Below, one piece after another: positions 4,351 through 31,504 of a stretch of DNA of 40,305 nucleotides (position 1 is the stretch's first letter; every line of letters starts with the position of its first letter). The stretch covers positions 1-40,305 of IMG/VR virus record IMGVR_UViG_3300037882_001833; one strand, written 5' to 3'. The stretch is from a virus. Made by a program: the position numbers and the translations under genes. The notes beneath the pieces are model-generated. The model saw only the letters and a list, made by a program, of their open reading frames with translations. It did not search any database and was not told where the DNA came from.

Positions 4351-4898
4351 ACCTTAGTACCGAGCTTCTCAAGACTGCACTGTTTAACGCCTGTGACCAG
4401 CGCGTTCCCGTTGACCGCCCACTTGCCGAGCAACTTTACCGTAAGCTGTACTTCAATCGTCGCAACTTAGAAATCTTCTGGCTCCCCTCTATGGAGGCTC
4501 TCAACTCTGTTATGCCGATTGGCGCACAGAATTACATCGGGTTCCGCACCATCATCAAGGGTGGTGGGGTACACAAAGGGTTAACCTGTCCAGGCTTGGC
4601 TCACATGGCAGAGTACCAGAGAGAAGCTGTAGAGTTTCACAAGAGGAACAACTACCGCAGTGGCCCACACTCTGACTGTATGGTGTTAGCTCGACTTATC
4701 TACGGATTGCTGCTCGTACCGTATGAGCTTACTGACTGGGGGCAAACGTTAGCTCATGTGGCTATCACTTGTGGGCATCATTTTTCTGTAGGCAATAAGC
4801 TGTACGCATCAGAGCGACAAGTACTAAGTGTCCCAACATGGCAAAAGCCTACGTTGGATCAGCTCACCGGTACTGGTAGCCCCACAGTAAGGATATAG
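4344..4898 (+). CDS. Hypothetical protein whose C-terminus lies in repeat element A
   Basis: 184 residues, ATG overlapping the endonuclease I stop region. No family recognised. It contains TCPGLAHMAEYQRE and two His-rich patches (EFHKRNN; CGHHFSVGNK), which might bind metal, but I cannot assign catalysis. The last 19 codons (from WQKPTLDQL onward) are encoded by the 5' part of the dispersed element found four times in this genome; the stop TAG is inside the TATAGT of that element. The C-terminus may therefore have been rewritten by insertion or recombination of the element. Confidence 0.65.
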   Translation: MLDLSTELLKTALFNACDQRVPVDRPLAEQLYRKLYFNRRNLEIFWLPSMEALNSVMPIGAQNYIGFRTIIKGGGVHKGLTCPGLAHMAEYQREAVEFHKRNNYRSGPHSDCMVLARLIYGLLLVPYELTDWGQTLAHVAITCGHHFSVGNKLYASERQVLSVPTWQKPTLDQLTGTGSPTVRI

Positions 4899-4993
4899 TG
4901 TAGGCACTGCACAGCGGTACGCCTAGTCTACAACGTATAGCTTCTACGTAGAAACATACCAACCGTTACTACCTCCCGTCTGAGAGGCACAGG
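4841..4993 (+). repeat. Dispersed 152-bp element, copy A
   Basis: 5' box CCTACGTTGGATCA (4848-4861), TATAGT at 4894-4899, 3' box GTCTGAGAGGCACAGG (4978-4993). Shared with copies B, C and D at almost fixed spacing (43-46 bases from box 1 to TATAGT, 83-86 from TATAGT to box 3). TAGGC (4901-4905) can pair with GCCTA (4921-4925) directly after TATAGT. The 3' box supplies GAGG before the ATG at 4999. It may be a promoter plus structured leader, or a recombination linker. The first half is nearly identical to copy B. Confidence 0.85.
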
Positions 4994-4998
4994 AAAAC

Positions 4999-5472
4999 AT
5001 GACAATCACACTTAAAGCTAGGTCGCTCAACTTAGCCTTGCAAGATTACTGCGATACCTGCTACGTCGAAGGTTACAAAACTGTAGCTGACAAGCACTGG
5101 TTGACAGCTACAGAGTTCAAACTGTACATCGTAAAGCACGCGGGAGCCATATTCTTTGATAAGTGGGAACGTTACAATCGTGACCACCACAAGGCAGTCG
5201 GCTCAAAGTATAACAGTGCTAACGTTCTGACTTACATCAGGCCAAGCTGGTACACAGGTGCCCCCAAATGTAAGTACATCCCACGTCATCACATCTTGTG
5301 GTGCCTCTACCACGACGTAACCGAAGTACCTAAAGGCTACGTTGTCTACCACCCCCACAGCCAGTACAACGACGGGCACCCGTCAGAGTTTGTATGCTTG
5401 ACCCGCAGTGAGCATCAACAGCTAGTAAACACTAAACGCAGAGAGACAGCAAATGGATTACCCACAGTTTGA
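4999..5472 (+). CDS. HNH-type endonuclease, probable free-standing homing endonuclease
   Basis: 157 residues, ATG just after the GAGG of element A. Residues 92-142 fit the HNH_3 pattern: IPRHHILWCLYHD (H97, H98), GYVVYHPHSQYNDGHPSEFVCLTRSEHQQL with H118/H120, N124 and H139. The N-terminal 90 residues, probably DNA-recognition, are not recognised. Such genes insert into phage genomes and cut related genomes lacking them. Its coupling to element A, and the second HNH gene ending in element B, suggest element and nuclease may travel together. The end overlaps the next gene by 20 bases. Confidence 0.72.
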   Translation: MTITLKARSLNLALQDYCDTCYVEGYKTVADKHWLTATEFKLYIVKHAGAIFFDKWERYNRDHHKAVGSKYNSANVLTYIRPSWYTGAPKCKYIPRHHILWCLYHDVTEVPKGYVVYHPHSQYNDGHPSEFVCLTRSEHQQLVNTKRRETANGLPTV

Positions 5473-5749
5473 CAATTCAGAAATTGACGTTATCCGTGGC
5501 TATTACAGTAAGAACGCAGTCAAGATTACACAGGGCAGAAGCAGACAGGGGCGCGGCATACACGTAGTAACTGGTAACGTTAGCATCAACTACGTCAAGA
5601 GCAGCTCAGTCTACGAGTGGCAACTAGTGGTAGGTAACGCTGTGATAGCAGCAGGTTCCCACGTACTGCTAGAGGCTGTACTCTACGACAGCCAGCAAGC
5701 TGTCAAACGTATGAAGCAAGCAGCAACCACACTAGAGGTCAGACCATGA
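5453..5749 (+). CDS. Hypothetical protein, 98 residues
   Basis: ATG inside the 3' end of the HNH gene. No family recognised. The protein is basic in its first half (KITQGRSRQGRGIHV) and ends in a helical segment (EAVLYDSQQAVKRMKQAATTLE). The tight overlaps on both sides (20 bases upstream, ATGA at 5746 downstream) support coding in the replication operon. Confidence 0.6.
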   Translation: MDYPQFDNSEIDVIRGYYSKNAVKITQGRSRQGRGIHVVTGNVSINYVKSSSVYEWQLVVGNAVIAAGSHVLLEAVLYDSQQAVKRMKQAATTLEVRP

Positions 5750-6186
5750 CACAGCACCAAGCAACACTACTCAAGAGAGCTGTTTCTCTAACTACAAGAG
5801 TAAACTTGACGCTTATTATAGACGATCACTGTTCACTCGACGACAAGATGAGACAGGCAGCTCTACAGTGTAACGCATCAGCTCAGACTATGACGTTCCA
5901 ACAACTGTTGACGCTACTCAGTGAGGGCTTCCAGGTCATCATGTGGGATAAATGGCTGGGGGAAGAAGCAACCCTGGTCATCATTAACAAATGTGTTGGT
6001 GAATTGCTGTACGTTAGACGGGCAGCAGGTAGATACTTTGATCCCTATAGAGCACAGCACAGTGACATTTACTACAAGTGCTTCGACTTGCTTGACCGCC
6101 ACGAACAGGAGGTGGGGGAGGGTATCATCGTTGACACGCTTGTTGCTCCATACCTTGCACTCGTTATCCCCCAAAGTAACTCATGA
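5746..6186 (+). CDS. Hypothetical protein, 146 residues
   Basis: ATGA-coupled to the preceding stop. Not recognised. Mixed alpha/beta composition with hydrophobic strands (NLTLIIDDHC, ATLVIINKCVGELLYV) and an acidic C-terminal part (DLLDRHEQEVGEGIIVD). No signal peptide or membrane span. The stop overlaps the ATG of the next gene (6183). Confidence 0.6.
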   Translation: MTQHQATLLKRAVSLTTRVNLTLIIDDHCSLDDKMRQAALQCNASAQTMTFQQLLTLLSEGFQVIMWDKWLGEEATLVIINKCVGELLYVRRAAGRYFDPYRAQHSDIYYKCFDLLDRHEQEVGEGIIVDTLVAPYLALVIPQSNS

Positions 6187-6500
6187 CAACATCACAAACA
6201 TACGCAGACAGGGTTAGCCGCTACGTTAAGCGCCAAGCAGTTCTGTACCAAGCATCCGACACTACGATGAACCGCTGTCGCATAGAGATGGACAGATTTA
6301 CTGGAGTGTTTTATCGTAATCGGGACAAGTTGCACGTCTTTGAGCTGTACTACAACCCGTACTCAAATAGTTCGATTGTTGTACAAGCGTTCAGTAACAC
6401 TCGTCTAAATGTTCTCTGTCAAACTGTCAACCGCTACTTATCCACACTGTCAAAAGCACTGGAATCAAATGAGAGAGATCGCCGCAGATTTAGAAACTAA
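6183..6500 (+). CDS. Hypothetical protein preceding DNA polymerase
   Basis: 105 residues, ATGA-coupled to the upstream gene. Basic, Tyr-rich, not recognised (YADRVSRYVKRQAVLYQ; VFELYYNPYSNSS). Its last 32 bases overlap the polymerase start at 6469. The position suggests an accessory role in replication or translational coupling for the polymerase; this is inference. Confidence 0.6.
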   Translation: MTTSQTYADRVSRYVKRQAVLYQASDTTMNRCRIEMDRFTGVFYRNRDKLHVFELYYNPYSNSSIVVQAFSNTRLNVLCQTVNRYLSTLSKALESNERDRRRFRN

Positions 6501-8328: not shown

Positions 8329-8459
8329 CAAACGTACAACAATGGGAGTGGATGCTACGCTACTGCCTCGATAACAACATCCCCCCAGGTCAGCCATGGG
8401 CCTGGGAGAGAGCAGGTGAAGCATACCGCTTGTGGCTATTAGAGCAGACGAGTTACTAA
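8325..8459 (+). CDS. Small ORF coupled to DNA polymerase
   Basis: 44 residues from GTG 8325, overlapping the polymerase stop (GTGA). Trp-rich and compact (QQWEWMLRYCLDNNI, QPWAWERAGEAYRLWLLEQ), probably two helices. Not recognised. The overlap and the absence of other coding in this gap support it. It might be a small partner of the polymerase, but nothing proves this. Confidence 0.5.
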   Translation: MTNVQQWEWMLRYCLDNNIPPGQPWAWERAGEAYRLWLLEQTSY

Positions 8460-8475
8460 CAACAGGTACAATACA

Positions 8476-8661: not shown

Positions 8662-8728
8662 CAATTGGAATCTGCTCGCCATTAAAGATAGCAGCTCGCA
8701 ACAAACACTACCTACAGCGGAGAACACA

Positions 8729-9274: not shown

Positions 9275-9321
9275 GTCAGCGCATCTACCACCCACACTAT
9301 TATACACAGCAGGTAACGACA

Positions 9322-9956: not shown

Positions 9957-9978
9957 CCCCCACAGTAAGGAATCACAG

Positions 9979-10131
9979 ATGTTAAACAAGGGTGGACGAA
10001 ATCCAGTTCACCCCTCCATTATAGAGAGCATACTCAAAGCTCTTAAGGAGGGGAGAACGCAGCAAACAATCGCCAAAGATACTGGCGTGTCACAATCAAC
10101 AGTAAGCAAAGTAAGCAGAGGGGTACGATGA
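9979..10131 (+). CDS. Small helix-turn-helix DNA-binding protein
   Basis: 50 residues from ATG 9979 with AAGGA 8 bases upstream and an ATGA overlap with the next gene. Residues 14-47 (IIESILKALKEG, then TIAKDTGVSQSTVSKVSRG) are a clean homeodomain/Hin-like HTH; the rest is only a short basic arm (NKGGRNP). The size and simplicity suggest a transcription regulator or accessory DNA-binding factor. The upstream CCCCACAGTAAGGA string also occurs in elements A and B just before TATAGT. Confidence 0.7.
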   Translation: MLNKGGRNPVHPSIIESILKALKEGRTQQTIAKDTGVSQSTVSKVSRGVR

Positions 10132-10982: not shown

Positions 10983-11431
10983 TGCATTACAACGATTATC
11001 AGCGAAACTCTGAAAGAGAAGTAGCTAAGGTACTGGAATTTGCTTGCAAGCAGCACGTAGGACGACATAAGCAGCCCACAGTAACTAGTTTCAGAGTTGC
11101 AGCATTTAAGGATCTTGACATGGTTTATCAGCCTTACGCAAGACAAGTCTGCAATCTGTCAGTTAGTTACCCTGCTAATTGGTGGGAAGCCTTGAAGGTT
11201 ACTCTGCCAGAAGTCTTACGATTTAAGTGGGTGCAATCTGATCTCAACTTCGGTTGGATTCGAGATATAAGAACTGAGCAGTATGCTGTCGTCAACAAAA
11301 GTGAGGAGTATTGTACAGAGCTTACTGTAAAAAACTTCACAGTCTACGTTGATAACAATCTAGGCGCTGAAGTATTCCGAGACAAGTTCACCCCCTCAGA
11401 GGATTACTGGTACAATGTCCAACCTGACTAA
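10982..11431 (+). CDS. Hypothetical protein, 149 residues
   Basis: TAATG overlap with the exonuclease. Not recognised. The N-terminus is basic and helical (NSEREVAKVLEFACKQHVGRHKQ); the middle is Trp/aromatic-rich (YPANWWEALKVTLPEVLRFKW). No membrane span. The next gene starts inside its 3' end (11415). Confidence 0.55.
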   Translation: MHYNDYQRNSEREVAKVLEFACKQHVGRHKQPTVTSFRVAAFKDLDMVYQPYARQVCNLSVSYPANWWEALKVTLPEVLRFKWVQSDLNFGWIRDIRTEQYAVVNKSEEYCTELTVKNFTVYVDNNLGAEVFRDKFTPSEDYWYNVQPD

Positions 11432-12100: not shown

Positions 12101-12106
12101 ACAAAA

Positions 12107-12166: not shown

Positions 12167-12178
12167 GCTGTAATTAGT

Positions 12179-12329
12179 GCAAAAGCCTACGTTGGATCAG
12201 CTCCCTACAGCCAGTAGCCCACAGTAAGGATATAGTGCAGGACGACAGAGGTTGATTGCTGTGCTTTGCTACTAGGTTGTCGGGTGTATTGCTACCCCCT
12301 GTTACTCCGAGTAGTCTGAGAGGCACAGG
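12179..12329 (+). repeat. Dispersed 152-bp element, copy B
   Basis: Box 1 at 12186-12199, TATAGT 12231-12236, box 3 at 12314-12329. It is oriented plus, but no plus gene follows: the ATG after box 3 (12333) is followed at once by CAG TAG. Its 3' box lies inside the end of the minus-strand HNH gene. If TATAGT is a promoter -10, the RNA would run antisense to that gene. CAGGAC and GAGGTT after TATAGT are shared with copies C and D. Confidence 0.85.
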
Positions 12330-12771
12330 GAAATGCAGTAGTCAGCCTCTCAAGTAGATGGTGTCGTGCATGAGTACTATGCGTCATCAGCTGTAAGTTG
12401 CTAATGTCGTTGTTCAAAGGATTACCGTCAATGTGATGCACACAGAACTCATCAGGTATATGTGTTAGCCCGTTGGCTTCACAGTAAACAACATGGTGCT
12501 CACGTGAAAACCCTTTGAACTCATGTCCTTTGAACCAGTCAGGTGTCGGTACACGTCTGTACCCTCCACTTATAAAAGCCTTCTTTGGCTTCTTTACTCT
12601 CGTCATACGTTCATTGTAGTACCTATCCCCTAAAACATCTTTGACTGCTTTTGACACTGTCCCGACATTTTTGTTTACGGCTCTAGCAACTGCATTATAC
12701 GACAGATCCGTACCAGTAACTAAACTAAGAATCGTAGCGCGTTGCTCGTCTGTGATTTGCGGGTATCTCAT
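12292..12771 (-). CDS. HNH homing endonuclease with N-terminal HTH
   Basis: 159 residues; a perfect AAGGAGG lies about 8 bases before the ATG. Residues 5-50 (ITDEQRATILSLVTGTDLSYNAVARAVNKNVGTVSKAV) form an HTH; residues 88-140 form HNH_3: REHHVVYCEAN, FCVHHIDGNPLNND (H112, H113, D115, N117), NLQLMTHSTHARHH. The last 15 residues are encoded by the 3' box of element B, so the element and nuclease are physically joined. It is the promoter-distal gene of the late block. Probably a mobile gene; its target site is unknown. Confidence 0.85.
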   Translation of the reverse strand: MRYPQITDEQRATILSLVTGTDLSYNAVARAVNKNVGTVSKAVKDVLGDRYYNERMTRVKKPKKAFISGGYRRVPTPDWFKGHEFKGFSREHHVVYCEANGLTHIPDEFCVHHIDGNPLNNDISNLQLMTHSTHARHHLLERLTTAFPCASQTTRSNRG

Positions 12772-13296: not shown

Positions 13297-15534
13297 TTAA
13301 GGGAGGGGGATTAAATCCATCTGATAGAGAGTCTCGTTTCCAGCGGGGCCGTAGTTACAGGCAATACCTATGCGTACAAACTGCGTACCAGCAGCTAACA
13401 GTAAAGCTCCTGGGGTAGCTGTTTGCTTTAGGCAGACGTTTGCGGTGTTAAAGATTTGATCTTGATTAGCCTCGTAATTTAGAAACACCCCGTAAGGGTA
13501 CAACGCATTGCCATCACCACCTTGTGATTCAGCAACTTCTGTTCCGGCAGGCCATACACCTCCGCTACCTGCTGCTGGGTTGGGATAGGCCCAAGGTGCA
13601 GGCAACGTCAAAATGTATTCTGTGGCTGTTGTTACTACTGACGCTGTTGCGCCTAAAAAAGCGTTGTTGCGACTATAGCAGTAAGCATTGTCAGGGTCGC
13701 TCGGTTTAGGGTATATTTTACCAAAGCTATTCTTGTACGGGAATACCAACAAGTGCTTGTAGGTTCCATTCCCCCATTGAGTTGCAGTACCCTTGTTAAT
13801 CCTTACGGTAGTTGCACCGACGGCTAACGGAGCGCTTAAGGTTGAGGCAGTACTTAGCGCGACGCTGTTGTAATAAACGTCGTTGGGCAGTTTATCAGCA
13901 TCGTACTGCGCGATAAACGGAAAATGCTGATTGCCAGCAACGAATGTTTTAGCACGAACAGTCACGGCAAATCTTAGCGTCACCCCAGCCGGAACGTAAC
14001 TATACTCGGCGCACTCTGTAGGCAGATAAGTGTAAGACGTGTTGCAAAGCAAAGAGTAATTACCGCTTACCGCTTGAATGGGGTAAGCGATAACCCCTGG
14101 CCAATTTTCTGCGCGAAGCACACCTCCAGCGTCGGGTGTCGCTGGGAAATTGCAGCCACCATTGCGGATGTACCCAGTCTGCCGATCGTTTAGTTCACGC
14201 GCGCTAAGATATGCTCCTTGTACAATTTTGCCATTATTCCAAACCGATCGATCTGATAATCGTTGCTCAAGGCCACCCCCAGTAAGCGTCGCAACCAGCG
14301 TCGATCCAGGGTAGCGCCACGTCTCAGCGTTAATCAATTCTCGTATCGCCGCTGCATCGCCCGTCGCAATCAACTGCTCACCCATCCCCCCTGTGGGTAG
14401 GAGCGTTACAGATTCGTCTGTGTTACGTCGGATCAACCCAGCTATAGTGGCGTTAGCGATTGACTGAAGTGTAGCGTCTGCGTTTTGTTTACCGTTTAAT
14501 GCAGCCGACAGCCCAGTAAGCTGTGCTCTCTCTGCTGTCGTAAGACTCAGGTAAGGCCCAGCCCAAACAGTGCCGTTAGATACCCAGTAGTCCCCAGTGT
14601 CGCTTCTAACATAAAGTCGCTGCCCAGAAGTCGGTGTACTTGATGGAACAGTCGTAGCAATCTGTATCTCCGGGAGATCTACTAAGTCAGCTAAAGAGAA
14701 CGACGTGGTTGCTCCTCCGACTAGCGTGAACGTTACTTGCTTTGTCGTTGTGTTGTAGTTGACACTCTGAAAGACTAGCTCCAGTGGTGTGTCGATACTC
14801 TGAGTGCCGCCATCTGCCCACGTAAAGAGCCACACCCCGGTCGAAGCTGTGTAGACTGCTGAGCAACCACGGCTATTTATTGCGGGGATTTTGCTGCTGC
14901 CATCAAGAGGGGCAATACCGTTGATAGCTCCCTTCTGAGTTGTGGGGAGATACCCAGTGAGAGCTGTTGTTAGCTGTGCTGCTGTGGCATACCCAGGGTG
15001 TGGGTTAGCGAGAGCTTCGTGAGCAGCAACAGCAGCAGTAACTTCAGCATCACGCGCAATCAACGCTGGGATCTGAGCATCACTAAGTGTACCACTTAGG
15101 TCAGCTACAGGTACGGCGGCACTCTTCAGACGGTACTGTATGTGAGGGTCAGGCAGTGCAACGTGGGATGCAACTGCTGCATCACCTGTTGTACCAACGT
15201 TCCAAATAAACTGTTTAACTTCACGTAGGTCGTCCAGCACTCTTTCTATCTGTTCTAAGCGGCGGTTCATCCCAAGCTGAGAAGTAACCTCCCCATATTG
15301 AAGGGTGTCGATGTCCCGCAGCCCCCAGCGGTAGAGATTAACTATTGTATTTGTGGGGAGAGCTGCTCCGCTGTAAGTAATAACTGTGGCGGTAGTCTTA
15401 GTATAAGCTGCTAACGGTTGCTCTAACCCGGAGATGACTACAAGGAAGTCTTTCTCCCCAGGGTCGTTGACAAGCCCCAAGGCTGTTACGTCTACCGTCC
15501 AGTTTGTCCCGCTTCTCGTTACTTGGATTCCCAT
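13297..15534 (-). CDS. Tail fibre / receptor-binding protein with T7 gp17-like N-terminus
   Basis: 745 residues. The N-terminal about 115 residues (GLVNDPGEKDFLVVISG, LYRWGLRDIDTLQYGEVTS) resemble the T7 gp17 tail-attachment domain, followed by a coiled coil (LEQIERVLDDLREVKQFI, about 92-110). A spacer contains repeated short Ala/Thr motifs and SHVALPDPHIQYRL. The C-terminal part is beta-rich with many Asn/Gly/Tyr and probably folds as a trimeric receptor-binding tip. It should bind the host cell surface. The start overlaps the end of the 1028-residue protein by 16 bases. Confidence 0.75.
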   Translation of the reverse strand: MGIQVTRSGTNWTVDVTALGLVNDPGEKDFLVVISGLEQPLAAYTKTTATVITYSGAALPTNTIVNLYRWGLRDIDTLQYGEVTSQLGMNRRLEQIERVLDDLREVKQFIWNVGTTGDAAVASHVALPDPHIQYRLKSAAVPVADLSGTLSDAQIPALIARDAEVTAAVAAHEALANPHPGYATAAQLTTALTGYLPTTQKGAINGIAPLDGSSKIPAINSRGCSAVYTASTGVWLFTWADGGTQSIDTPLELVFQSVNYNTTTKQVTFTLVGGATTSFSLADLVDLPEIQIATTVPSSTPTSGQRLYVRSDTGDYWVSNGTVWAGPYLSLTTAERAQLTGLSAALNGKQNADATLQSIANATIAGLIRRNTDESVTLLPTGGMGEQLIATGDAAAIRELINAETWRYPGSTLVATLTGGGLEQRLSDRSVWNNGKIVQGAYLSARELNDRQTGYIRNGGCNFPATPDAGGVLRAENWPGVIAYPIQAVSGNYSLLCNTSYTYLPTECAEYSYVPAGVTLRFAVTVRAKTFVAGNQHFPFIAQYDADKLPNDVYYNSVALSTASTLSAPLAVGATTVRINKGTATQWGNGTYKHLLVFPYKNSFGKIYPKPSDPDNAYCYSRNNAFLGATASVVTTATEYILTLPAPWAYPNPAAGSGGVWPAGTEVAESQGGDGNALYPYGVFLNYEANQDQIFNTANVCLKQTATPGALLLAAGTQFVRIGIACNYGPAGNETLYQMDLIPLP

Positions 15535-18500: not shown

Positions 18501-18605
18501 ACTACGGTTAGCAGCTTTCTGCTTGAGAGCGCTGAGAGTTGTAGCGCTCCACTGTACTTTGCGGTTAGGTGGTTGTGCTTGCGGCGTCGGTGTGCAGTTA
18601 ATCAT
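15519..18605 (-). CDS. Large internal virion / DNA-ejection protein (1028 aa)
   Basis: Coupled by ATGA to the ART-containing gene upstream. Mostly helical, Ala/Gln/Leu-rich. YMPRIFSQPAKRA, NKWFRTNFSMQALGNPITATVYLSGQLMSNMAS and FPMFDDVGSVTETVTSVAPFSAW look like long ejection proteins of T7-like phages (gp16-type C-terminal region), with amphipathic segments suited to membrane passage. No enzymatic motif seen. It would sit in the capsid core and help build the trans-envelope conduit. The assignment rests on size, composition and place between tail proteins and fibre. Confidence 0.6.
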   Translation of the reverse strand: MINCTPTPQAQPPNRKVQWSATTLSALKQKAANRSAALKALAVTTPNNKASATAMRAQEYWEGIVFESGKLTWLQPNKQSNASQFIADHLGQKLGQAGDVRESLLNIRRLVDGNLREAGIYSMMSKQQDFAQAVKATGVKLDAADFDRFVEEGLTPQRLAVYGNTPRQQSVLLTRFNSFKADMLAKGLTDPQITDLLDKANSVASQWDEVRAVALSTGMDVGEMTNIGYMPRIFSQPAKRALERSNALGSITEETGQTLIAKSRETWRYLPEDEAMAAALLKVDNAQLQTLIANPSQFAEFLSKRVTDDQLDLLVDSGIMSKIPMLGTEVAEYMTRKYKIPLLDADVFIHDPVAASNGMIDKLKAGAQQSAMVKHISTEGMAAGWAIPRAVAENNPQLYNKFVKLSSVVDTAAGDLYVHPTVAANLSGLLRIAGSPAEMSKAAAINKWFRTNFSMQALGNPITATVYLSGQLMSNMASTVGRGAGLTDFFTSLQDIALVSSKGLDAFDNVKPFRILDGAPVTHREFVAKTLRNFSHNILPGVDVTGTGAGMIDIKQLDPRYIRQHFENIRAAGQSGGVKAYTQEIGNVLKEQRDAVFLPTLRVASIIDMAGQLAVARGKATLGYGGPKAAIKDVDQAIFGWSSERYDTWEQVMGEVKKSFPMFDDVGSVTETVTSVAPFSAWAMQNLPLQLADMLRQPSRWYNYARMTALWNDNQMGSDTLPAGGMQSWERDKYGLVLNNDPATGHTTMLFHGDLDPRWGALTWLASLGGDKSAEALRAKIKGESTQKVVNSLISKTMFSGVYKALSGIDPLTGTKRDDSPLEFEQFGGMTMHPAVAAVLSISPFLSSVDRLPVISGQRALLDPRTNAVIKPAVDGWLGNQGKLRPQQLENTEATLQVLGGRVRVINRFANMKMTWRDTERVMNKVRKDQSTAQQQLQVDIKRGSVSEDSDSYRKRVAAINQMTDVILQVNLDLGRIERYAEQNGLPPDKAFEQIQTEQLVLDNLPLPGADYLRQQLDEGLKAKWESK

Positions 18606-21600
18606 ATCTCGCAGGGGGATGAAGGGTTATCAGCGTTCTTAGCTGGGGACGTGTCAGACTTGAGGGCTTCGTCGAACTTACGGTCAAACGCTTCGTCGTC
18701 AATTTGGTCGAGCAATTCGTCTAGCTTCGATTGTAGTTGCGGTGGTACGTTGTCAATTGGGTGGGTAGCAATCTCAGCCATAACGTCGTCGATAGCTGTA
18801 CTTACTGCTTTGACGCTGGAAGGTAACAGCGTAGAGTAAGACTCGTTGTAAACTTTGTCGGCTACTGCATCATAGAGCTTAACGTACTTCCCTTCGAGCA
18901 GTGAGATGAGCTTAGGGTCGTCAACGTGGCCGTCGAGGATATCACGCACAAGTGCTGTGAAATCTTCCCCACGCTTAGCTGGTATTCTCCCCTCAGTTAA
19001 AGCTGTAATGTACTCGTCGCTGGAGCGTTTAGCACTCTCAGTGAACCGTCTAACAACGTTATCGACACGCTCTACCGGTGACGCAGCTACAGGTAACGTT
19101 ACAGGCTGCGGGACAACGTCATCCAGCATCCCACTACGCTTAACAGCATCGTAAGTCTTGAGTTGCGCAGCTTCAACAGCTTCAGATGCCCCGTCAAGTG
19201 CTTGGCTCTCTACTCTCACAGCAGTATCAGCGACAGTAGATTTGAGGAACTGCGAACCTGTCTGCTCTACAGCGTCACGCTCCATCTTAAGACGGTTACG
19301 CAGCATCACTTCTGGCGAGATGTCACCCCCAGCTCCTTTAACTGGGGTGACACTTTGAGTTACAGCAGCTCTTGTGTCAATCGTAGAAGTAATCTTCCCA
19401 GCTCTGATGTGCTGCACCCCGTTATCCCGCAGAGCTTGTGTCAGCTTTTGCTGGAATTGCAGTGCTGCTTCCTCTGAGCTGTTTGCTCCTACCGTATCGA
19501 GGATGCCAACGACTGAGTTATCACCACTCGCGTCAAGTGCTGCTTTAATCTCAGGAGTTGCAAACTGGTCAGCTAATTGTCGAAGCTGGGGGAGCTGTGC
19601 TTTGCCGTCTAGAACGTTACCACTAAGCTGTACTTCGTGGATTACCCCATCCCCAAACTCTCTACCAGGTAAATCGGGTAGGTTGACAGCGGCGTCGGCT
19701 TTAGCTGGCACTGCTGCTGATGCTTTGCTGCCGTAAGTGTACACCCCACTTCCTAGTTCGTTACGTGCTGACCCTGCTATTGGGTCAATATTCTCGATGC
19801 TGAGATCTTTAACGCGGGTGCCGTGATACGCTTTACTGTTCTTAACCGGTATCAGCGGTAGCTCTACACGTAAGGGATCACTGTAACTGATTTCGGGGAG
19901 TAGCTCGTCGTCAAGCTGGTTTCTCCCTACATCTAGTGTATCTGACTGCTGGCGGATAGCGTCTTGCTGCGATTGCTTAACGCCTTTGCGTAGCTCTTGC
20001 GCTACAAGAGATTCGTTGACAGCAGAAGTCACTTCGTCGAGCTGCGGGAGCTGCTGCTGTACTTCTGAGATTACTTGTTGGGTGTCAGTAGTAGGTACAA
20101 CGTCGTCAACAATCTGCCGTAACTGTTCTAAATTAACTCCCGCTTTCTCTAGGGAGTCACTGGCTTTAGGTAGTTGTAACAGCTCGTCAACTTGCTGCGC
20201 AAAACGAACTCCTTGAGGAGTCCCCCACCATTCTTCATTAGATAGCTGCTCTTTAATTATCTGAGTTACAGGATTGCGTGGCTTAGCTAATCGAGTAGCC
20301 AACGAAGCAGGTTTGCTGTCAAGTGCTTTATCGAGAAACTCTGATACTGCATTTACTTTGTCTTTGAGTGGGGCTGCTTGAAAGTCGTACTTTTTAACAA
20401 CGTCGCTGTTAAAGAGTTGCTCTACTTCGTCTACAAACTTTACAACTTCGTCACGAAAGACAGGCTTTGCAGTGAGCGGCTTCAGAAGTGAGAGCTTTTC
20501 TTTCGGGGTAGCATTGAGCGGCGCACGAAGTTCAGCAACGCGAGACGGCATAAGCAGTTTGCGTTCAGCGGTAGCTGGTAGCCGTGGCTGCGGCGTGTAA
20601 GCTCTGCGCGGAGGAGGTAAGACGACAACTTGCTGACGAGCTGGGGGTAACTGCCGAGGACGTTGCTTAACTGCTCCTCCCGGTGCTTGAATTGATGAGC
20701 GAGCTGGTGGTAACTGTGCTCTCTGCGGCGAAGGCGGCAATGGTGGTCGAGAGGGTGCTGTCGGTGCTGCAGCTGCGGCTGGGGGTGGGAGCGTCCTGGC
20801 TCCGATACCGAGACGCTTAGCTGCTGCCCCAACTAACTTGTCAACTTTAGCCCCAACAAATACATCCCCAGCAAAGCCTAAGAGCTTACTAGGGTTGACG
20901 CCTACTTCCCCAACGAAAGGCAGCTTCGGAGTCTTAAAAGCTCCAGTCTGTACCCCAATGCCGACACCCTCTCCAGCGTCATCACTGAAGCTGTACTGGG
21001 CACCACGGATAGCTTCGATGATGTTGCTCTTACCGTCGTCGTACTTGTTGCCGTTGAGTACCCACTGTGCTACGCCGAGTTGCTTAAAGAGTGGAGTACG
21101 ACGCATGAAGCGGTCAGCAAACTCTCTGTGCTGCGGAGGGACAACGTTTCCCAATTGACGGATAAGCTGCCTCCCATCGAGAGCTGCTCCGATAGCTGTA
21201 TTCTGGATTACGCCTAAAGGGTAAAGGATAGCGCCGAGCAAGTTGGTATCGTACTGCTGCGTTTGCTGATTGAACTGGACTGGGGCGTTGTACTTGCGGA
21301 CGCCGTCCCGCTGCCCGATAATGGTGCGTACCCAGTCGAGTCCGTCTGAAGTGCTGCTGTTCTTTGCTTGACGGTCAGCTTCAACTTGAGCAGTTAGTGC
21401 TGCTGCGTAATCAGCGTTCTGTTTATTTTCGTTGACGTACTGAGCAAAGATTGATTGGCGTTGTTCAGCGTTATCAGCAATTAGGTTACGCAGCCCAGGC
21501 TGATTAATCATGTAGGGGATAAAGTCTTCTGGGCCAAGCGCATCGATAGCTGCATTACTGAGTGAGCGTTCAAGCTGTGCTGCTGCTACTGCTTTGTTGG

Positions 21601-22075
21601 CATCAGGCTGAAGATAAGCGGAAGCTGCCTGCTCTGCTGTCATCTCCTGTGGTCGTGCGTACTGCTCCCCACTTCCACGGCTGACAGGGAATGGTGCTTG
21701 CCACGGCTGTCGTGATGCTGCTAACTCTGCTGCAACCTGTGCGTCTTCTACTGGGTCGAGGTGGACAGCCATAACTGGTTGTCGCTGTGGTGCGACGTAC
21801 TCGTTACCGGGGAGAGGGTCTTTATCAGCTTCAAGTTCAGCGGCAACCTGCGCGTCTTCTTCTTTGCTGAGGTGGACAGCTTGAATGGGTTGTCGTGCTG
21901 CTGGCTGCTCTGGGGGTGGTACAGCAATAGGTATCGGCGCTGACTGCTTAGTGGGAAGCTCAACAGGTAAAGGTGCTTCGACACTGGGGAGAGCATCTGG
22001 AGGGTTAGGGGTAGAGCCTAGGCGGAGATCACCTCCTGCTGTCTTGCGCTTGTTGTCATTGATTAGATCAGCCAT
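18602..22075 (-). CDS. Internal virion protein with ADP-ribosyltransferase-like domain
   Basis: 1157 residues. N-terminal Pro/Ala-rich region with two 27-residue repeats (residues 61-87 and 98-124; shared core EDAQVAAEL). Residues 425-500 are Pro/Arg-rich linker. Residues 749-900 look like an ADP-ribosyltransferase: AYHGTRV (H751), GSGVYTYGSKASAA (Y779/Y781), IHEVQLSGNVLD, then QALRDNGVQHIRAG. This HGT...GxGxY pattern occurs in phage ART domains, and T4 Alt is a known injected ART. Probably ejected into the host to modify a target such as RNA polymerase; target and activity are inferred. The gene follows element C, whose box supplies GAGG before the ATG. The C-terminal region is helical. Confidence 0.6.
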   Translation of the reverse strand: MADLINDNKRKTAGGDLRLGSTPNPPDALPSVEAPLPVELPTKQSAPIPIAVPPPEQPAARQPIQAVHLSKEEDAQVAAELEADKDPLPGNEYVAPQRQPVMAVHLDPVEDAQVAAELAASRQPWQAPFPVSRGSGEQYARPQEMTAEQAASAYLQPDANKAVAAAQLERSLSNAAIDALGPEDFIPYMINQPGLRNLIADNAEQRQSIFAQYVNENKQNADYAAALTAQVEADRQAKNSSTSDGLDWVRTIIGQRDGVRKYNAPVQFNQQTQQYDTNLLGAILYPLGVIQNTAIGAALDGRQLIRQLGNVVPPQHREFADRFMRRTPLFKQLGVAQWVLNGNKYDDGKSNIIEAIRGAQYSFSDDAGEGVGIGVQTGAFKTPKLPFVGEVGVNPSKLLGFAGDVFVGAKVDKLVGAAAKRLGIGARTLPPPAAAAAPTAPSRPPLPPSPQRAQLPPARSSIQAPGGAVKQRPRQLPPARQQVVVLPPPRRAYTPQPRLPATAERKLLMPSRVAELRAPLNATPKEKLSLLKPLTAKPVFRDEVVKFVDEVEQLFNSDVVKKYDFQAAPLKDKVNAVSEFLDKALDSKPASLATRLAKPRNPVTQIIKEQLSNEEWWGTPQGVRFAQQVDELLQLPKASDSLEKAGVNLEQLRQIVDDVVPTTDTQQVISEVQQQLPQLDEVTSAVNESLVAQELRKGVKQSQQDAIRQQSDTLDVGRNQLDDELLPEISYSDPLRVELPLIPVKNSKAYHGTRVKDLSIENIDPIAGSARNELGSGVYTYGSKASAAVPAKADAAVNLPDLPGREFGDGVIHEVQLSGNVLDGKAQLPQLRQLADQFATPEIKAALDASGDNSVVGILDTVGANSSEEAALQFQQKLTQALRDNGVQHIRAGKITSTIDTRAAVTQSVTPVKGAGGDISPEVMLRNRLKMERDAVEQTGSQFLKSTVADTAVRVESQALDGASEAVEAAQLKTYDAVKRSGMLDDVVPQPVTLPVAASPVERVDNVVRRFTESAKRSSDEYITALTEGRIPAKRGEDFTALVRDILDGHVDDPKLISLLEGKYVKLYDAVADKVYNESYSTLLPSSVKAVSTAIDDVMAEIATHPIDNVPPQLQSKLDELLDQIDDEAFDRKFDEALKSDTSPAKNADNPSSPCEI

Positions 22076-22078
22076 TTT

Positions 22079-22230
22079 CCTGTGCCTCTCAGACGTGAGT
22101 TACTTACTGGGTGGATGTTTGTACCTGTAGAGGGTACAGTAAAGCGCAGACTTTAACCTCGGTTGTCCTGCACTATATCTATGATGCTGGGAGTGCTGCT
22201 GGTTATAGCTGATCCAACGTAGGGTTTTGC
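22079..22230 (-). repeat. Dispersed 152-bp element, copy C
   Basis: The only copy on the minus strand: box 1 complement at 22210-22223, TATAGT complement at 22172-22177, box 3 complement at 22079-22094. It fills the gap between the M23/transglycosylase gene and the ART-containing gene, with ATG at 22075. GCAGGAC after TATAGT can pair with GTCTGC 13 bases later, and GTACC with GGTAC further on. The best candidate for a promoter/leader role because it lies on the coding strand of the late block. Confidence 0.85.
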
Positions 22231-22231
22231 A

Positions 22232-25200
22232 CTAACTGAGTGGTGCTTCATGCCGGATGAAACTGTCTCCGAGTTGAGCGCAGAATGCACAGCCTGAGCG
22301 GTGGTAAGTGTGAATAACTGCTGAAGTACGCTTAGAGCGGTTCCCCAAGTAGTTGTACTGCCTGCCACTGTACTTGCCGAGTGTCTGCATATACTTAAGT
22401 AGCGTTGTGTAGCCGTCGTTGTTCTGTGGGTCGAGCACTGCTGCTGCACCTTTGCGGTCTACTTGCTGAATCCCCACATTACCTTGGTTAATACCAGCTA
22501 CTAACCACTCAGGGCCTTTGTACTCTTTGACGCCACTCTGCCGTAGTCGCAGCCCCAGGTAAGCATCAACGTACTTCATCTGCTCTGCTGCTGTCGAGTT
22601 GTTTAGCTGAGAGCGAGAGATGCCTAGATCCTGGAGGATAGCATCCCCGAATTGGATAAGCCCAGAGAACCCCATTCCGTTGTCAATCTTAGGTGAAAAC
22701 GTTCCGGCTGACTCGTAAGCGATAACGTCAGCTAACCACTGTCCTGGCATGTTGTACTTGTTGGCAACTCTGTTAATCTCACGTGCTAGTGGTTTGTCGT
22801 TGGCCAGCTTCGTGTAGCCGTGATGGTGGTCAGGCTGTACGTTACTGGGGTAGTCTTCTCTACGGTTGCTGGCGTAACTGTTCTTAACGGGCTGCGCTGG
22901 GGAGGTTGCTACTTGACGGAGAGCTGGGCGAGTTGCTCCTGATTGCTGCGTACCAGCTGAGCGCTGCATACCACTACGTATGTTGGACGTACCGGCTGAA
23001 GGTGGGGCTGTACGTCCTCCGGTTAGTTGCATCAAAGGTGAGTTACCGATAGCACCTTCCCCACCTCTATCTTTTACTGCTGTCGCCACTGAGATAGCTT
23101 TCTGTGGGTTAGCTAAATCGTAGAGCTTGCCGTTCAGCAGGAACTTAGACTTACCGATGGGGACAGCACCACGCGGGATACTCGGTTGAGTGAAGCCAGC
23201 GCTACGGGGCTGTGGGCCTCCTTGTGCTGAGTGGTTAGCAAGAATCTCTTCGGGGTTGAAGGCTTTGCTGCGGTCTTTAGTGTGCACCCCAAAATGTAAA
23301 TGCTGACTACCAGGTGAGCCGCTCTCTCCGCTGAGTGCAACCACTTCCCCGGCCTCGACACGCTGACCAGCAATCACGTTAGCAGCTGACAAGTGAGCAT
23401 AGTGATAAACCAAACCGTCTCCTCCTAGGATGCCGACGTTGAGACCGTAGCCTTTTCTGCCATTGTCAGGCTCGACGTAATACACCGTCCCAGTAACCGA
23501 TGACAGCACCTCGGTACCAGTCGCGACAGCGAAGTCTAGTCCCTGGTGGGAGCGGCTTCCCCCATCTCGTACTGCACCGTAATGCATCTGGTCACCAGAT
23601 GAAATGTCCGGCATACTGTTAGCTACGTTAGGAGCAAACGGCACCACCATTGACCTACCGTTGTAGCTACGCTTAGTCAACTGTTTGATGGGGCCGTTCT
23701 TAAAAGTTCCTGTGATTCCTTGTTGCTGCGGGGAAGTTGTCTGTGCTGCGTCCTGCTCAATCTCTGCTTTACGCTTATTGTAAGAGTCAATCTTAGCAGC
23801 GAACGATGCTCGGCTGGCTTTAGTGTCAGCTTCGTTGAGGTACAGCCCGTAACGTGCAAACTCTTTGTTACGATTAACAAAGTTGGTATCTTCTACTGTT
23901 TGCTCTGCGATGAGCGACTGCACTACGGCTTCACTCGATTGCTGCATCAGGTTGACTTGAGCGGGGGTTAGCTGTCCGCCCTGTAGCGCCTCTGGTGTAA
24001 TGCCTGCCCCACGTAGGATCTCTAGCTGTTTAGCGAGAGCTGGGTTGCTTGCTGCTGCACCAGGAGACTTAGTGTTGGAGATAAACCAAGCGTTGAACGA
24101 CTTGCTGACGTTAGCAATCTCAGTAGCTTTACGCGCTCTCGATAGGTCGTAAGCGGGCTTCTCTGTTGTGCGGAACTTAATAAAGTCATCAGCGACACGC
24201 ACAGCTTCGATAGCGTTCTTGTCAGCCCCCTGTTTAGCCAAGGCGCGAACAGCAGAACCTGCACCACTAGGGTCAAGCACAGAGTCGATAGCCAGCCCAC
24301 CAACGATAGCAGCATCAGCTTCGATGAACTCTGTTTCGCTTAAGACTTCTTTGCGACGCAGTTCAATAAGGTTCTGCTCTGTCTGTTTACGCTCTTCAAG
24401 GAATTTACCCTCGGCGTTGGGGTCTGGCACTGAGAAGCCTGTCACCCCCAGCTCAAGTGCTTTGATGCGGATACTATCCTGGTACTCTTGGATGGGGAGC
24501 TTAGACTGATTAACGAGCTGTCGTTGCTGTGCGGCGTAGGCTGCTAAGTTGCGATAAGCTGAAGCGTCTTGCTGCATCCGCAGATAGCTGTCGTTAGACT
24601 CAGCCATTCCTTTGAGACCTGTCTCAAGAGCGGTAGCTACGGCGTTAGCTCTAACTACCTCGCTGTAAGACGTGTTGTTGAGAATGTCGCGAATACCCGT
24701 GTTGTACGTTGCCCACAACTTGTCAACTTCCTCGCGGCTCATGTTAGCACTAGCTTTGATAGCGCCGAGAGTACCGTTGAGCGGAGCAACTAGAAGCAGT
24801 TCGTTGGAAGCGTTGCGCTTCTGAGTGATCTCTTTAGCGATGTCCTGCTGTCCCTCGTAGATCTCCTTAGAACGTTGGTGAGCGGACTCAGCGTACTTCT
24901 GCGTGAGGCTGACAGTATCATCCCCAGTTAGATCTGCATCAGCTACACGCTTGGTTACAGCATCGAGGTAAGCATCTGTCCCCAAATCTCTAATCTTGCC
25001 ACCTGAGATCCACTGAGTTTGAATGCGCTCAAGGTCGTCTACAGCGGCAGCTTTACGTTGTTCGCGTTGAGCTTTCTCGATTGCTGCTAGTTCTGCTGCT
25101 GCTTTACGCTCAGCTTCTTTGCGTTGCTCTTCCCCAATCTCTTTCATCTTAGCGTCGTAGCTCAACAACGTTCCAATGCCCTGCTGCAATCCTTGGAGAG

Positions 25201-25483
25201 ACTGAGAGAAGTTGTTGCTGTTTTGCGCTGACTGCTGTAGTACGGCTGACTGAGCTTGTGCAACACGCTGAGAGTTCTCTTGGAGGAGAGCTGCTGTTTG
25301 CTGTGTGCTTTGCGTAGAGCGCTGCGTCGTGTTGCTAAACTGTTCAGCAGCACGCTGTACACCTTGCAACCCTTGTGAAGTAATGTCGAGTGCTGTCGTT
25401 GACGGGGCTGTATCAGTCTGGACTTGCAGTGAGTCTATCTGTTGAGACTGGGGGAACTGAAAGCCAATAGGTTCTATCTTCAT
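22232..25483 (-). CDS. Internal virion protein with M23 endopeptidase and lytic transglycosylase domains
   Basis: 1083 residues; ATGA-coupled to the upstream gene with GGAG before ATG. Residues 1-600 are Gln/Ala-rich helices. Residues 630-748 are M23/LytM: HQGLD (H646, D650), YHYAHL, then QHLHFGV (H728, H730), the zinc ligands. Residues 901-1010 resemble an SLT transglycosylase: LADVIAYESAGTFSP (E924 candidate), then FSGLIQFGDA and VAGINQGNVG. The two would cut peptide cross-links and glycan strands during DNA entry. T7 gp16 carries only a transglycosylase. Ends in a basic tail with a CxxC. Confidence 0.82.
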   Translation of the reverse strand: MKIEPIGFQFPQSQQIDSLQVQTDTAPSTTALDITSQGLQGVQRAAEQFSNTTQRSTQSTQQTAALLQENSQRVAQAQSAVLQQSAQNSNNFSQSLQGLQQGIGTLLSYDAKMKEIGEEQRKEAERKAAAELAAIEKAQREQRKAAAVDDLERIQTQWISGGKIRDLGTDAYLDAVTKRVADADLTGDDTVSLTQKYAESAHQRSKEIYEGQQDIAKEITQKRNASNELLLVAPLNGTLGAIKASANMSREEVDKLWATYNTGIRDILNNTSYSEVVRANAVATALETGLKGMAESNDSYLRMQQDASAYRNLAAYAAQQRQLVNQSKLPIQEYQDSIRIKALELGVTGFSVPDPNAEGKFLEERKQTEQNLIELRRKEVLSETEFIEADAAIVGGLAIDSVLDPSGAGSAVRALAKQGADKNAIEAVRVADDFIKFRTTEKPAYDLSRARKATEIANVSKSFNAWFISNTKSPGAAASNPALAKQLEILRGAGITPEALQGGQLTPAQVNLMQQSSEAVVQSLIAEQTVEDTNFVNRNKEFARYGLYLNEADTKASRASFAAKIDSYNKRKAEIEQDAAQTTSPQQQGITGTFKNGPIKQLTKRSYNGRSMVVPFAPNVANSMPDISSGDQMHYGAVRDGGSRSHQGLDFAVATGTEVLSSVTGTVYYVEPDNGRKGYGLNVGILGGDGLVYHYAHLSAANVIAGQRVEAGEVVALSGESGSPGSQHLHFGVHTKDRSKAFNPEEILANHSAQGGPQPRSAGFTQPSIPRGAVPIGKSKFLLNGKLYDLANPQKAISVATAVKDRGGEGAIGNSPLMQLTGGRTAPPSAGTSNIRSGMQRSAGTQQSGATRPALRQVATSPAQPVKNSYASNRREDYPSNVQPDHHHGYTKLANDKPLAREINRVANKYNMPGQWLADVIAYESAGTFSPKIDNGMGFSGLIQFGDAILQDLGISRSQLNNSTAAEQMKYVDAYLGLRLRQSGVKEYKGPEWLVAGINQGNVGIQQVDRKGAAAVLDPQNNDGYTTLLKYMQTLGKYSGRQYNYLGNRSKRTSAVIHTYHRSGCAFCAQLGDSFIRHEAPLS

Positions 25484-26598: not shown

Positions 26599-26599
26599 G

Positions 26600-29500: not shown

Positions 29501-29653
29501 ACCGTTGCGCCTAACGATAGCACCGTCAGCGCTAATGTCACAGTTTTGAAATACAGTGCTGCTGCTCGGCTCTACGGTACCGCTGCTGAGAGAAAGGTCA
29601 AGCCCTGTGAATCTATCAGTGTAGATTCCCTGGTGTTCTTGCTGTTGCTGCAT
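26600..29653 (-). CDS. Tail tubular protein B (T7 gp12-like nozzle)
   Basis: 1017 residues. The start (YTDRFTGLDLSLSSGTVEPSSSTVFQNCDISADGAIVRRNG) matches the conserved opening of gp12-type nozzle proteins. The remainder is beta-rich with repeated blade-like segments (for example NSVTALSAWQDSLLVFTSENVYAVKG). It forms the distal tail tube. Longer than T7 gp12 (about 790 residues); the extra part is probably inserted beta domains. Start and preceding stop share bases (TAATG). Confidence 0.8.
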   Translation of the reverse strand: MQQQQEHQGIYTDRFTGLDLSLSSGTVEPSSSTVFQNCDISADGAIVRRNGTRLLFSLDFGAGVGKSWQTTVKTRNGTEYLVLVQDGGILITRAYTPPGSDTLTIGKSLLKQSVWTKPLSNVNFVLLSAPYDRLLILTGNHPPVEISFLERSMQFTVSAAAGVDKSINAPFSSNDYFGWQDRAPSSTLVWDNTTLVDYDVLAKGTGFFVTLTNPVALPLGQQQLTIASITWQWWAEAAFYTGAEFNQSVTRVNVTKADQNIAVPVELITDYPPILSSDIYTGLLVSSNSAVCADNVFALNDKPSTALQYNFTSGGTYQFNAAYTPQIAPYFVTFGDIQAVGTISVCHIHRRRLLPFRSNSAVPFNEVRGYVDNVALGFNSQLCVAPGIVGSLTSYTPSSTLSNYGYVAVNSNAPVRAIDFMAGNTRVPFDALIRIVDLLGKSYFGGTSQNVWVTDRDQSNVFLDGRYVAAYGIGQFCSYLSGVFPALGTVYRDRLILKCEGVSDQLVASCNADAIVPNEYYNFFQITASLKGDATDPFTFNIASDTKNSVTALSAWQDSLLVFTSENVYAVKGEPFSDGTVRSTLIASQGAFNNNCVAVSELSVVFMNRYGVFDLINKQNTAELGVLERSSKVRPLFNTDIASPNYDNLHWLHFDDSTTSIWVGLATSDTLFTSRHLVLNTTWDSWSTFVGAVPYLMRKPTKLYNKTILFCTGYSKRWLVTAVTNQPYYIDFAALTTDKKWTDDNVIATSMSIPFTVTPQKIYKTEQIFMPGLLDAEGSNIVKVVSSWANQALTQTAITARQFIADLKTTKWLVGNPSNRPARYLPFIAVSSQAQQNLYPQVTPIAAPVNAANYTLLPPTTIDGVVLPDTVSTKLRGMSYQSIAASPVFNFATMGRLKRLKRLHLQFDPTIALGTKYNIPGLENVRLFNMAVTAVVTDHKAVSRAVVNQALTTQPFVDITQYSASTEAIGNVQHTITLQGQSTNYRWFVSSVGGEAFKLNGYEFDIQPQRSKTYQRG

Positions 29654-30270
29654 TAGTATCTCCAGGTTGTGGGGGTGTCTGATTCTCTGCGAGTACGGAG
29701 CGTTTGCAGCTCTACTTCAAACTGTCGTGATGAGGCGTTAGCGCTAGCTAAGTCTGTTGTGTGCGTCCTGTGAAGGATGCTCTCGGCGTACAGCGTAACA
29801 CACTGTAGAAACTGAGCGTCAAGTGTAATGTTGTCGCTTACGTTGACCGGTACAGTAGGGGCTAACAACAAGTAAAATCTTAGCTTTGCTTTGTTGGTTG
29901 CATCAACAGGTCGAAACTGTAGTGAGCGCTGATCTCTGTGCGCCCACATCGTAGGCGTATCAGCTACATCGAGTATACCCTCTTGTAGCTTTTGATACGT
30001 CACTTCTGGTAGTTTGATCTTAGGGCTGTCTTGCAGAAAGACAGCAATGACGCTCTGGAACTCCGGTAGGTTAGCCACCGTATCCCCGACCCAACTTGTT
30101 GGTACTACTTCTGAACGGAGATGCGGCCAGCGGTACAAGGTAGAGACGAAGCGCAGGGCTTGCTGAAAGGCAAGTACAGCTTTTCGTGCAACGTACCCGT
30201 CGAAGTCGCTGACAGGAAGCTCCCCCACAGTAAGTAGTAAGTCGTTAGTTTGGTCGAGGAACGTTGGCAT
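29653..30270 (-). CDS. Tail tubular protein A (T7 gp11-like adaptor)
   Basis: 205 residues. TFLDQTNDLLLTVGELPV, then AVLAFQQALRFVSTLYRWPHLRSEV is typical of gp11/adaptor proteins that attach the tail to the portal. Immediately follows the capsid gene and precedes gp12, as in T7. No unusual feature. Confidence 0.8.
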   Translation of the reverse strand: MPTFLDQTNDLLLTVGELPVSDFDGYVARKAVLAFQQALRFVSTLYRWPHLRSEVVPTSWVGDTVANLPEFQSVIAVFLQDSPKIKLPEVTYQKLQEGILDVADTPTMWAHRDQRSLQFRPVDATNKAKLRFYLLLAPTVPVNVSDNITLDAQFLQCVTLYAESILHRTHTTDLASANASSRQFEVELQTLRTRRESDTPTTWRY

Positions 30271-30274
30271 AGTC

Positions 30275-31306
30275 TTAACCTAGTGTGTGAATAAGGACGG
30301 CGTGGTCTTTGCGGAACAGTTTGCAACCATAGCTCTGGCGGGCCAAGACTTGCGTAATGTCCAACTGAGGGATGCGGTCAACCGTAGGGCTGAGGTTGTT
30401 TTGCATGACAGCCGCAGCCCACTCCTTAGAGCAGAGCAGTGCAGTCTGCACAACACCGCCACCAGCACCCCAAGTAGCAGGCAACGAAGTGAAAGCGTCC
30501 TGCTTCGGCATATAGATTGAACCTGTAAATCCAGGAGACGGAAGAGATTCAACCGTGCCGTTGACAGTACGAGTCTTCCAAGCTGTGGCGCTGTTCGTGC
30601 CAACCAACGTAGAACGCCAGAAGTTGATGCCGTACAGTGTACCAACTTTACCGGTCTCTGTGGGCTTGCCGCTGATGTAGTCACCGCTGGTAGACTGCAA
30701 GATGCTCAACAGCGAAGTCTCTTGCTGCGTGGAGCACAACATAACAATGTCGCTTTCGTCAACGTCAGCATCCAGCAAGAGCTGGCGGGCAGCAAGAATA
30801 GACTCCAAGTTGAGACGTGCCCCAGTACCAGCCAAGCTGCCAGCACCAGCACCACCAGCAGTACAGAAGATGTTCTGCGAAGCAATAGCGTAGAGAGCAG
30901 CGCGCAAGCCGAGTATAGCACCTGCCATGTCCTTCGCTAAGCTGTACCCCATACCCTTGACGTAAGCGCTACGGTACTGATACGAGGCCATCGCTTCAGC
31001 GAAGTTGTCGATGCCGATAGCAACAGCTTTGTCGCTGTCAACCTGAATAACATACTCGTTATCCAAGTCAGTTTGCAGCGTGAACGGCTTGTCGATTTGA
31101 CGATTCTCAACAATCAGTTCTCCGATCTGTGGGATGTGGAACGTGTCACCTTTAGTGACGTTCGACTTAAAAACTTTGCAGATTTGCTCGGGGATGAGCA
31201 TCCGCGCTTGGCGGAACTCCATCATCTCAGGTAGCCAGAACTCCGCAATAAAGCGAGAAGTGTTTGACTGGTTAAAGCTCTCGCCGTTAAGTAATCCGTT
31301 AGGCAT
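30275..31306 (-). CDS. Major capsid protein (T7 gp10-like, HK97 fold)
   Basis: 343 residues, ATG preceded by GGAG. NTSRFIAEFWLPEMMEFRQARMLIPEQ, GDTFHIPQIGELIVENRQIDKPF and IGIDNFAEAMASYQYRSAYVKGMGYSLAKDMAG match T7-like capsids. Expected to be the most abundant late protein. Between it and the scaffold lies a 206-base gap, the largest in the structural block, holding element D and a small hairpin, so extra regulation here is plausible. Confidence 0.85.
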   Translation of the reverse strand: MPNGLLNGESFNQSNTSRFIAEFWLPEMMEFRQARMLIPEQICKVFKSNVTKGDTFHIPQIGELIVENRQIDKPFTLQTDLDNEYVIQVDSDKAVAIGIDNFAEAMASYQYRSAYVKGMGYSLAKDMAGAILGLRAALYAIASQNIFCTAGGAGAGSLAGTGARLNLESILAARQLLLDADVDESDIVMLCSTQQETSLLSILQSTSGDYISGKPTETGKVGTLYGINFWRSTLVGTNSATAWKTRTVNGTVESLPSPGFTGSIYMPKQDAFTSLPATWGAGGGVVQTALLCSKEWAAAVMQNNLSPTVDRIPQLDITQVLARQSYGCKLFRKDHAVLIHTLG

Positions 31307-31329
31307 TGTAGGTTCTCCATGTAATGAGT

Positions 31330-31344
31330 CCTGCTGAATGCAGG
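31330..31344 (-). other. Small hairpin in the capsid leader
   Basis: CCTGC-TGAAT-GCAGG, a five-pair stem with a five-base loop, lies 24 bases before the capsid ATG on the minus strand. It may stabilise the leader or mark a processing site, or may be chance. Confidence 0.3.
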
Positions 31345-31352
31345 CTGATTGC

Positions 31353-31504
31353 TGGTTTTCCTACGTTGGATCAAGGGTAACTGACGGGGGAGATCTTAGC
31401 TGTATAGTAGTGTAGGACGGTGGAGGTTGATCACTGTACTTTACTATACAGCTTACAGGTAAGAACGTACAGATAATTAGTAGGAGCTGTCTGAGAGGCA
31501 CAGG
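31353..31504 (+). repeat. Dispersed 152-bp element, copy D
   Basis: Box 1 at 31360-31373, TATAGT 31403-31408, box 3 at 31489-31504. It points plus, against the late block, in the gap between scaffold and capsid genes. AGCTGTATAGT (31398-31408) has a perfect inverted partner ACTATACAGCT (31443-31453), so TATAGT appears on both strands. The ATG after box 3 is followed by CGC TAA, overlapping the scaffold stop. Box 1 lacks the GCAAAA prefix of the other three. Confidence 0.82.

Follow-up and report, generated by a model that had tools for sequence, protein, structure and literature searches.

IS630/Tc1-mariner-type MITEs are short, non-coding elements with inverted ends bounded by TA. REP/BIME-type intergenic repeats are inverted, dispersed sequences located between co-directional or convergent genes. 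The SAS/ESAS of cluster K mycobacteriophages are dispersed conserved sequences at start codons, about half of them with an imperfect 17-bp inverted repeat upstream; the SAS is 13 bp long and has 11-19 copies, the ESAS arms are mostly 4-13 bp apart, and the consensus differs by subcluster (PMC3203893). The cyanobacterial LexA operator, a single 14-bp site, has the quoted consensus RGTACNNNDGTWCB (PMC3091678).

Here we describe a dispersed element in a 40,305-bp virus record (IMGVR_UViG_3300037882_001833; hereafter the window, meaning the whole stretch of DNA analysed), which PHROG and tblastn comparisons place in the freshwater cyanopodovirus group, Saffermanviridae. Like SAS/ESAS, it is a dispersed conserved phage sequence whose consensus differs between groups. 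It departs from them in having four copies, of which one is antisense and another lies at a convergent junction, and in the wider separation of its ends (about 145-200 bp); in both sequence and spacing it differs from the SAS consensus GGGATAGGAGCCC next to start codons. With REP/BIME-type repeats it shares an inverted, dispersed form and a location between co-directional or convergent genes, but its arms are longer and resemble protein sites, its copies are few and it has no conserved stem-loop.

A dispersed element with conserved ends

The earlier note on this DNA reported four copies with conserved ends, three on the plus strand and one on the minus strand, and this was confirmed. The 14-mer CCTACGTTGGATCA (box 1) and the 16-mer GTCTGAGAGGCACAGG (box 3) each occur exactly four times in the 40,305 bp, always paired with one another, against a simple expectation of <0.001 for any one such 14-mer or 16-mer. 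The copies are as follows.

4848-4993, plus strand: copy A, 146 bp; boxes 4848-4861 and 4978-4993; TATAGT 4894-4899
12186-12329, plus strand: copy B, 144 bp; boxes 12186-12199 and 12314-12329; junction of convergent gene blocks
22079-22223, minus strand: copy C, 145 bp; boxes 22210-22223 and 22079-22094; flanked by the M23 peptidase gene and gene 18602-22075
31360-31504, plus strand: copy D, 145 bp; boxes 31360-31373 and 31489-31504; between the scaffold and major capsid genes, antisense to both

A fixed length of 151-153 bp had been proposed. The length is indeed near-constant, but those values included seven flanking bases. End-to-end length is kept at 144-146 bp in the window while internal distances vary, which counts in favour of paired sites. 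The boxes are 100% identical in all four copies, and the interiors are 52-61% identical from copy to copy. The TATAGT centre ascribed to all copies is in register in A-C and about 3 bp off in D; the sequence that truly aligns at the centre is TAGTGYAGG. The YAGGAC...GAGGTT core reported for copies B, C and D was confirmed as well. As a separate observation, CCCACAGTAAGGA is present in copies A (4881-4893) and B (12218-12230) and a third time at 9959-9971, just 5' of gene 9979-10131, where it contains a likely ribosome-binding site.

The genes that adjoin the copies include the following.

4999-5472, plus strand: HNH-like endonuclease gene, starting 5 bp past copy A; PHROG 1891/7545, E about 1e-4; Pfam search without match
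12292-12771, minus strand: HNH_3 endonuclease gene, its 3' end overlapping the 3' end of copy B; PF13392, E 8e-12
22232-25483, minus strand: peptidase M23 gene, ending at copy C; PF01551, E 4e-21
30275-31306, minus strand: gene for the major capsid protein, downstream of site D; PHROG 267, E 3e-36

Genes 4344-4898 and 4999-5472 flank copy A, the end of the former overlapping the start of the copy. An ATG follows 3-5 bp past box 3 in all four copies; it is a real gene start at A (the HNH-like gene) and C (gene 18602-22075, minus strand), and at B and D merely begins an ATG-codon-stop. The structural-gene block is nearly gap-free, and copies C and D occupy two of its three gaps of >100 bp, a further point for the paired-site reading. 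The third large gap of the late block (37062-37217, 156 bp) has no element boxes. The even spacing of the copies (7.3-9.9 kb; 0.2% of random placements) was noticed post hoc, and only two copies were detected in one relative (G006); it is unused as evidence.

An exact match to box 3 was found once in IMG/VR, in an unrelated contig without box 1, and was taken as chance. A gapped search for both boxes gave no match, nor did the gapped pattern in genome contigs; these collection scans are weak negatives, as one of them missed a match that another found in L027. Searching the phage collection with window positions 1-24000 and with copy D gave no useful match, and no peptidase relative was found in the genome contigs. 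The view that no described family has these boxes holds for Rfam and the papers searched. The dispersed element in the window is real, maintained and apparently undescribed.

Elements at the same sites in related phages

The major capsid protein of the window is 42-44% identical to those of Pf-WMP4, Lbo240-yong1 and LPP-1. Closer relatives are present in IMG/VR: G001-G003 (TerL 81%, DNA about 74%) and G004, a 14 kb fragment (DNA about 86%). Two further records from more distant phages, G005 and G006, are sisters of LPP-1/Pf-WMP4/Lbo240 in a tree of TerL, MCP and portal. The records of G001, G003, G004 and G005 are fragments.

The element is not absent from these relatives. G004 keeps copy A (L016 3280-3425, minus strand) with one mismatch per box, and most others carry a differently spelled element. 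In G001-G003, box 3 has no match at up to three mismatches; these phages have a different dispersed element of 185-203 bp, with arms TAGTACACCTGTACTCTACCGATCAAGC and its inverse, and clear terminal inverted repeats TAGTAC-N4-GTAC-N6-GATC. In G002 the elements are located as follows.

4347-4540: element D, at site D of the window
13597-13784: element C, at site C of the window
23249-23433: element B, at the same junction as window copy B
31190-31392: element E; the corresponding window junction (about 2212) has no element

G003 has elements at C, D and E, and G001 at C and D. Sites C and D are therefore occupied in G001-G003, and site B in G002, by the differently spelled element, which counts for the paired-site reading. 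As no element was found at B in the G001 and G003 fragments, site B is documented for the window and G002 alone. At C and D, in both the window and G002, the arm's TAG serves as stop codon for the upstream gene. The window arms also have outer extensions:

12174-12185, plus strand: TTAGTGCAAAAG, extending the 5' arm of B and resembling the TAGTAC start of the G001-G003 arms
22224-22235, minus strand: TTAGTGCAAAAC, extending the 5' arm of C and also resembling that TAGTAC start; its TAG terminates the upstream gene
31505-31516, plus strand: extension of the 3' end of D; the minus strand reads TTAGCGCATTCC, and its TAG is the scaffold gene stop codon

A profile built from the nine G001-G003 copies only, and applied to genomes outside it, matched site C in both G005 (L027 14402-14583, E 5e-7) and G006 (L046, E 2e-4). 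Both copies begin at or just past the stop codon of the peptidase gene. A second G006 copy at about 14095-14352 ends beside an HNH start codon. Paired-arm scans of Pf-WMP4, LPP-1, Lbo240, A-4L and PP found nothing above shuffles; the matrix used includes the G005/G006 arms, and its hits in those two genomes are not independent finds. Given the sister relationship of G005/G006 to LPP-1/Pf-WMP4/Lbo240, the element was either ancestral and lost there or gained more than once at site C. Element length in the relatives varies from 180 to 258 bp. As a result, spacing is constant in the window alone, which counts against the paired-site reading.

Several other features were observed in these genomes. 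Phage CHP58 is not claimed as a carrier: a tandem noncoding repeat of this phage includes a short stretch resembling GGCCTTCCTGGGCC, but its paired-arm score is not above shuffles. A long noncoding stretch of L021 (CHP58) holds, at about 11020-11380, two noncoding copies, in tandem, of a ~190-bp repeat containing hairpin-like GGCCTTCTAGGCCC units. Compared with copies C and E of G002, copies D and B (L012 4347-4540 and L013 5498-5682) have their internal CAAACGTAC segment reverse-complemented, reading GTACGTTTG. Window positions 1-228 contain a 15-bp tandem repeat in an open frame, pentapeptide-repeat-like, and similar arrays are present in G002-G004. A pentapeptide-repeat gene lies directly 5' of element E in G002 and G003 (Pfam match for G002). 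In G004 an HNH_3 gene (L016 6064-6519, minus strand) is located at the junction that holds the pentapeptide gene and element E in G002/G003 and gene 2214-2696 in the window, a turnover hot spot.

Possible kinship and mobility of the elements

We infer that the window and G001-G003 elements form one family; the shared junctions B, C and D say so, the sequences only perhaps. Shared position is the main evidence for this kinship; sequence homology is weak. The best single pair (A against G3_E) scores 57 against a shuffled mean of 27. On the other side, the mean similarity over all window and G002/G003 pairs was reached by 14 of 200 dinucleotide shuffles, the window arms rank 255 and lower among 80,562 positions with the relatives' matrix, and the profile of the G001-G003 copies did not find the window copies. 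Inverted arms are clear in the C and B copies of G001-G003 and can also be seen in G005 and G006; taken by themselves, the window ends show no significant inverted repeat, which counts against the paired-site reading. An unrelated element may have replaced the earlier one at the same sites.

The elements may be a recombination linker, as the earlier note suggested, or mobile: sites A and E differ between lineages, each being occupied in one lineage only. A domesticated or slow non-autonomous MITE-like element, with TA-bounded inverted ends, inserted exactly at gene boundaries and served by a transposase or recombinase in trans, would account for this. It would also explain the TA at both outer ends of the inverted repeats in G001-G003, the provision of stop (TAG) and start (CTATG) codons to neighbouring genes by the element ends, the apparent flip of B between the window and G002, and the lack of an element in Pf-WMP4, LPP-1 and Lbo240 despite their sister relationship to G005/G006. 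We nevertheless consider such an origin unlikely. While the element resembles IS630/Tc1-mariner-type MITEs in being short and non-coding with TA-bounded inverted ends, its ends are identical and its interiors have drifted to 52-61%, the reverse of what recent transposition or decay would leave. Sites C and D are stable across lineages, and neither a transposase among the proteins scanned nor a related copy was found (the gapped search of genome contigs again being a weak negative). Target duplication is unproven, the empty sites being too diverged to align.

The HNH genes provide another potential explanation: the boxes would mark cleavage or conversion tracts of free-standing HNH homing endonucleases and have spread by copying. 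HNH genes adjoin A and B, the early G006 copy ends directly 5' of one, and no window proteins other than the HNH proteins occur in both window/G002 and G006 while being absent from Pf-WMP4, LPP-1 and Lbo240. However, a homologue of the A-site HNH-like gene is present at the same place in G002 and G003 with no element beside it, copies C and D have no neighbouring HNH gene, and most HNH genes of G006 are away from elements, so we regard this origin as very improbable. The 40.8 kb G006 record has four HNH-type endonuclease genes in one early region (L053 9152-14088).

Protein sites on DNA or an RNA structure

The earlier note, whose interpretation is supported in part, suggested an RNA structure, a multi-site protein-binding platform or a recombination linker. 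Of the three, the protein-binding platform is best supported. In G001-G003 the arm blocks TAGTAC, GTAC and GATC are spaced ~10 bp apart, and the register is the same in G005 and largely kept in G006. This spacing of about one helical turn fits contacts on one face of the DNA. The arms also follow a common consensus, a further argument for paired sites. In G002, arm pairing within a copy (22.5/28) is no better than between copies (22.6), and changes in the arms are thus uncompensated within copies.

An RNA-level element acting from the transcript, as a processing site, 3'-end protection or terminator, would fit the location of all sites between co-directional or convergent genes and none between divergent ones. 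The G002 elements are also more stably folded than shuffles, whichever strand is taken (z -2.2 to -5.4), but inverted ends alone would produce that in elements of the G001-G003 type. Folding of window copies A-C is similar to that of shuffles and D is the most structured, only mildly so (z -2.2/-2.7; overall 0.3 to -2.7). The only hairpin common to the window copies (columns 50-56/76-82) was equalled by 152 of 500 shuffles, and the covariation proposed as a check was no better than in a shuffled control, each with five sequences and hence low power. An Rfam 15 search of the elements gave nothing at gathering score or up to E 1. Copy D is antisense to its operon. With shuffle-like folds, no covariation beyond the control, an empty Rfam search and no arm compensation, RNA structure is unsupported, and we judge an RNA-level role to be quite unlikely. 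Absent compensation, helical-turn spacing and shuffle-like folds together favour protein sites on DNA, although elements of the G001-G003 type may still have an RNA role.

Copies B and D were scanned for conventional signals. A promoter with a start after TATAGT had been suggested; no sigma-70 site (-35/-10 hexamers, 16-18 bp spacing) was found near B, which has no gene to drive, and one weak site (9/12 match) was found in D. Intrinsic terminators (GC-rich stem and T-run) were absent near B, and D gave one weak hit (3 GC pairs), which lies on the strand opposite the genes. No T7-type RNA polymerase gene was present among the window proteins scanned.

LexA was considered as a candidate binding protein. 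The operator consensus has 5, 8 and 7 matches in G001, G002 and G003 (palindromic ones counted on both strands), all inside elements, and none outside them in about 83 kb, which counts for the paired-site reading. The element ends of these phages thus match the consensus, although as paired ends of one element rather than single sites (PMC3091678). There are no matches in G004 or in the G005/G006 elements, nor in the window, whose lack of the box counts against the paired-site reading. Because the window has no LexA box, LexA was ruled out as the general binder; binding of host LexA, if real, would be a trait of the G001-G003 clade only.

Proposed function and significance

The element may serve as an operator or insulator, a replication site or a domesticated mobile element. 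Paired protein-binding sites that control or insulate transcription at fixed junctions are the best reading, to which we give a probability of about 45%. A candidate phage or host protein would recognise the conserved ends (inverted repeats in G001-G003) and would bring them together across a spacer of ~145-200 bp whose sequence is largely free. The element sits where the early block ends, ahead of the capsid gene, behind the peptidase gene and at one early site, and would control or insulate transcription there. The binding protein, the pairing of the ends and the regulatory role are what we infer rather than observe. Control or insulation of transcription is the most likely role and replication the next most likely.

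It is possible, though doubtful, that these elements represent a hitherto undescribed type of cis element in phages, in which inverted protein sites are paired and held at fixed junctions over genus-level divergence, with the recognition sequence replaced in all copies of a genome together, the element and its binding protein co-evolving, and the site of one clade taking the form of the host LexA operator. The ends are identical within a genome, whereas at the same sites in relatives the sequence is replaced, which makes co-evolution of site and protein testable. In addition, such a multi-copy element, placed by the capsid and peptidase genes and where the early block ends, would provide a handle on gene timing in freshwater cyanophages of this group.
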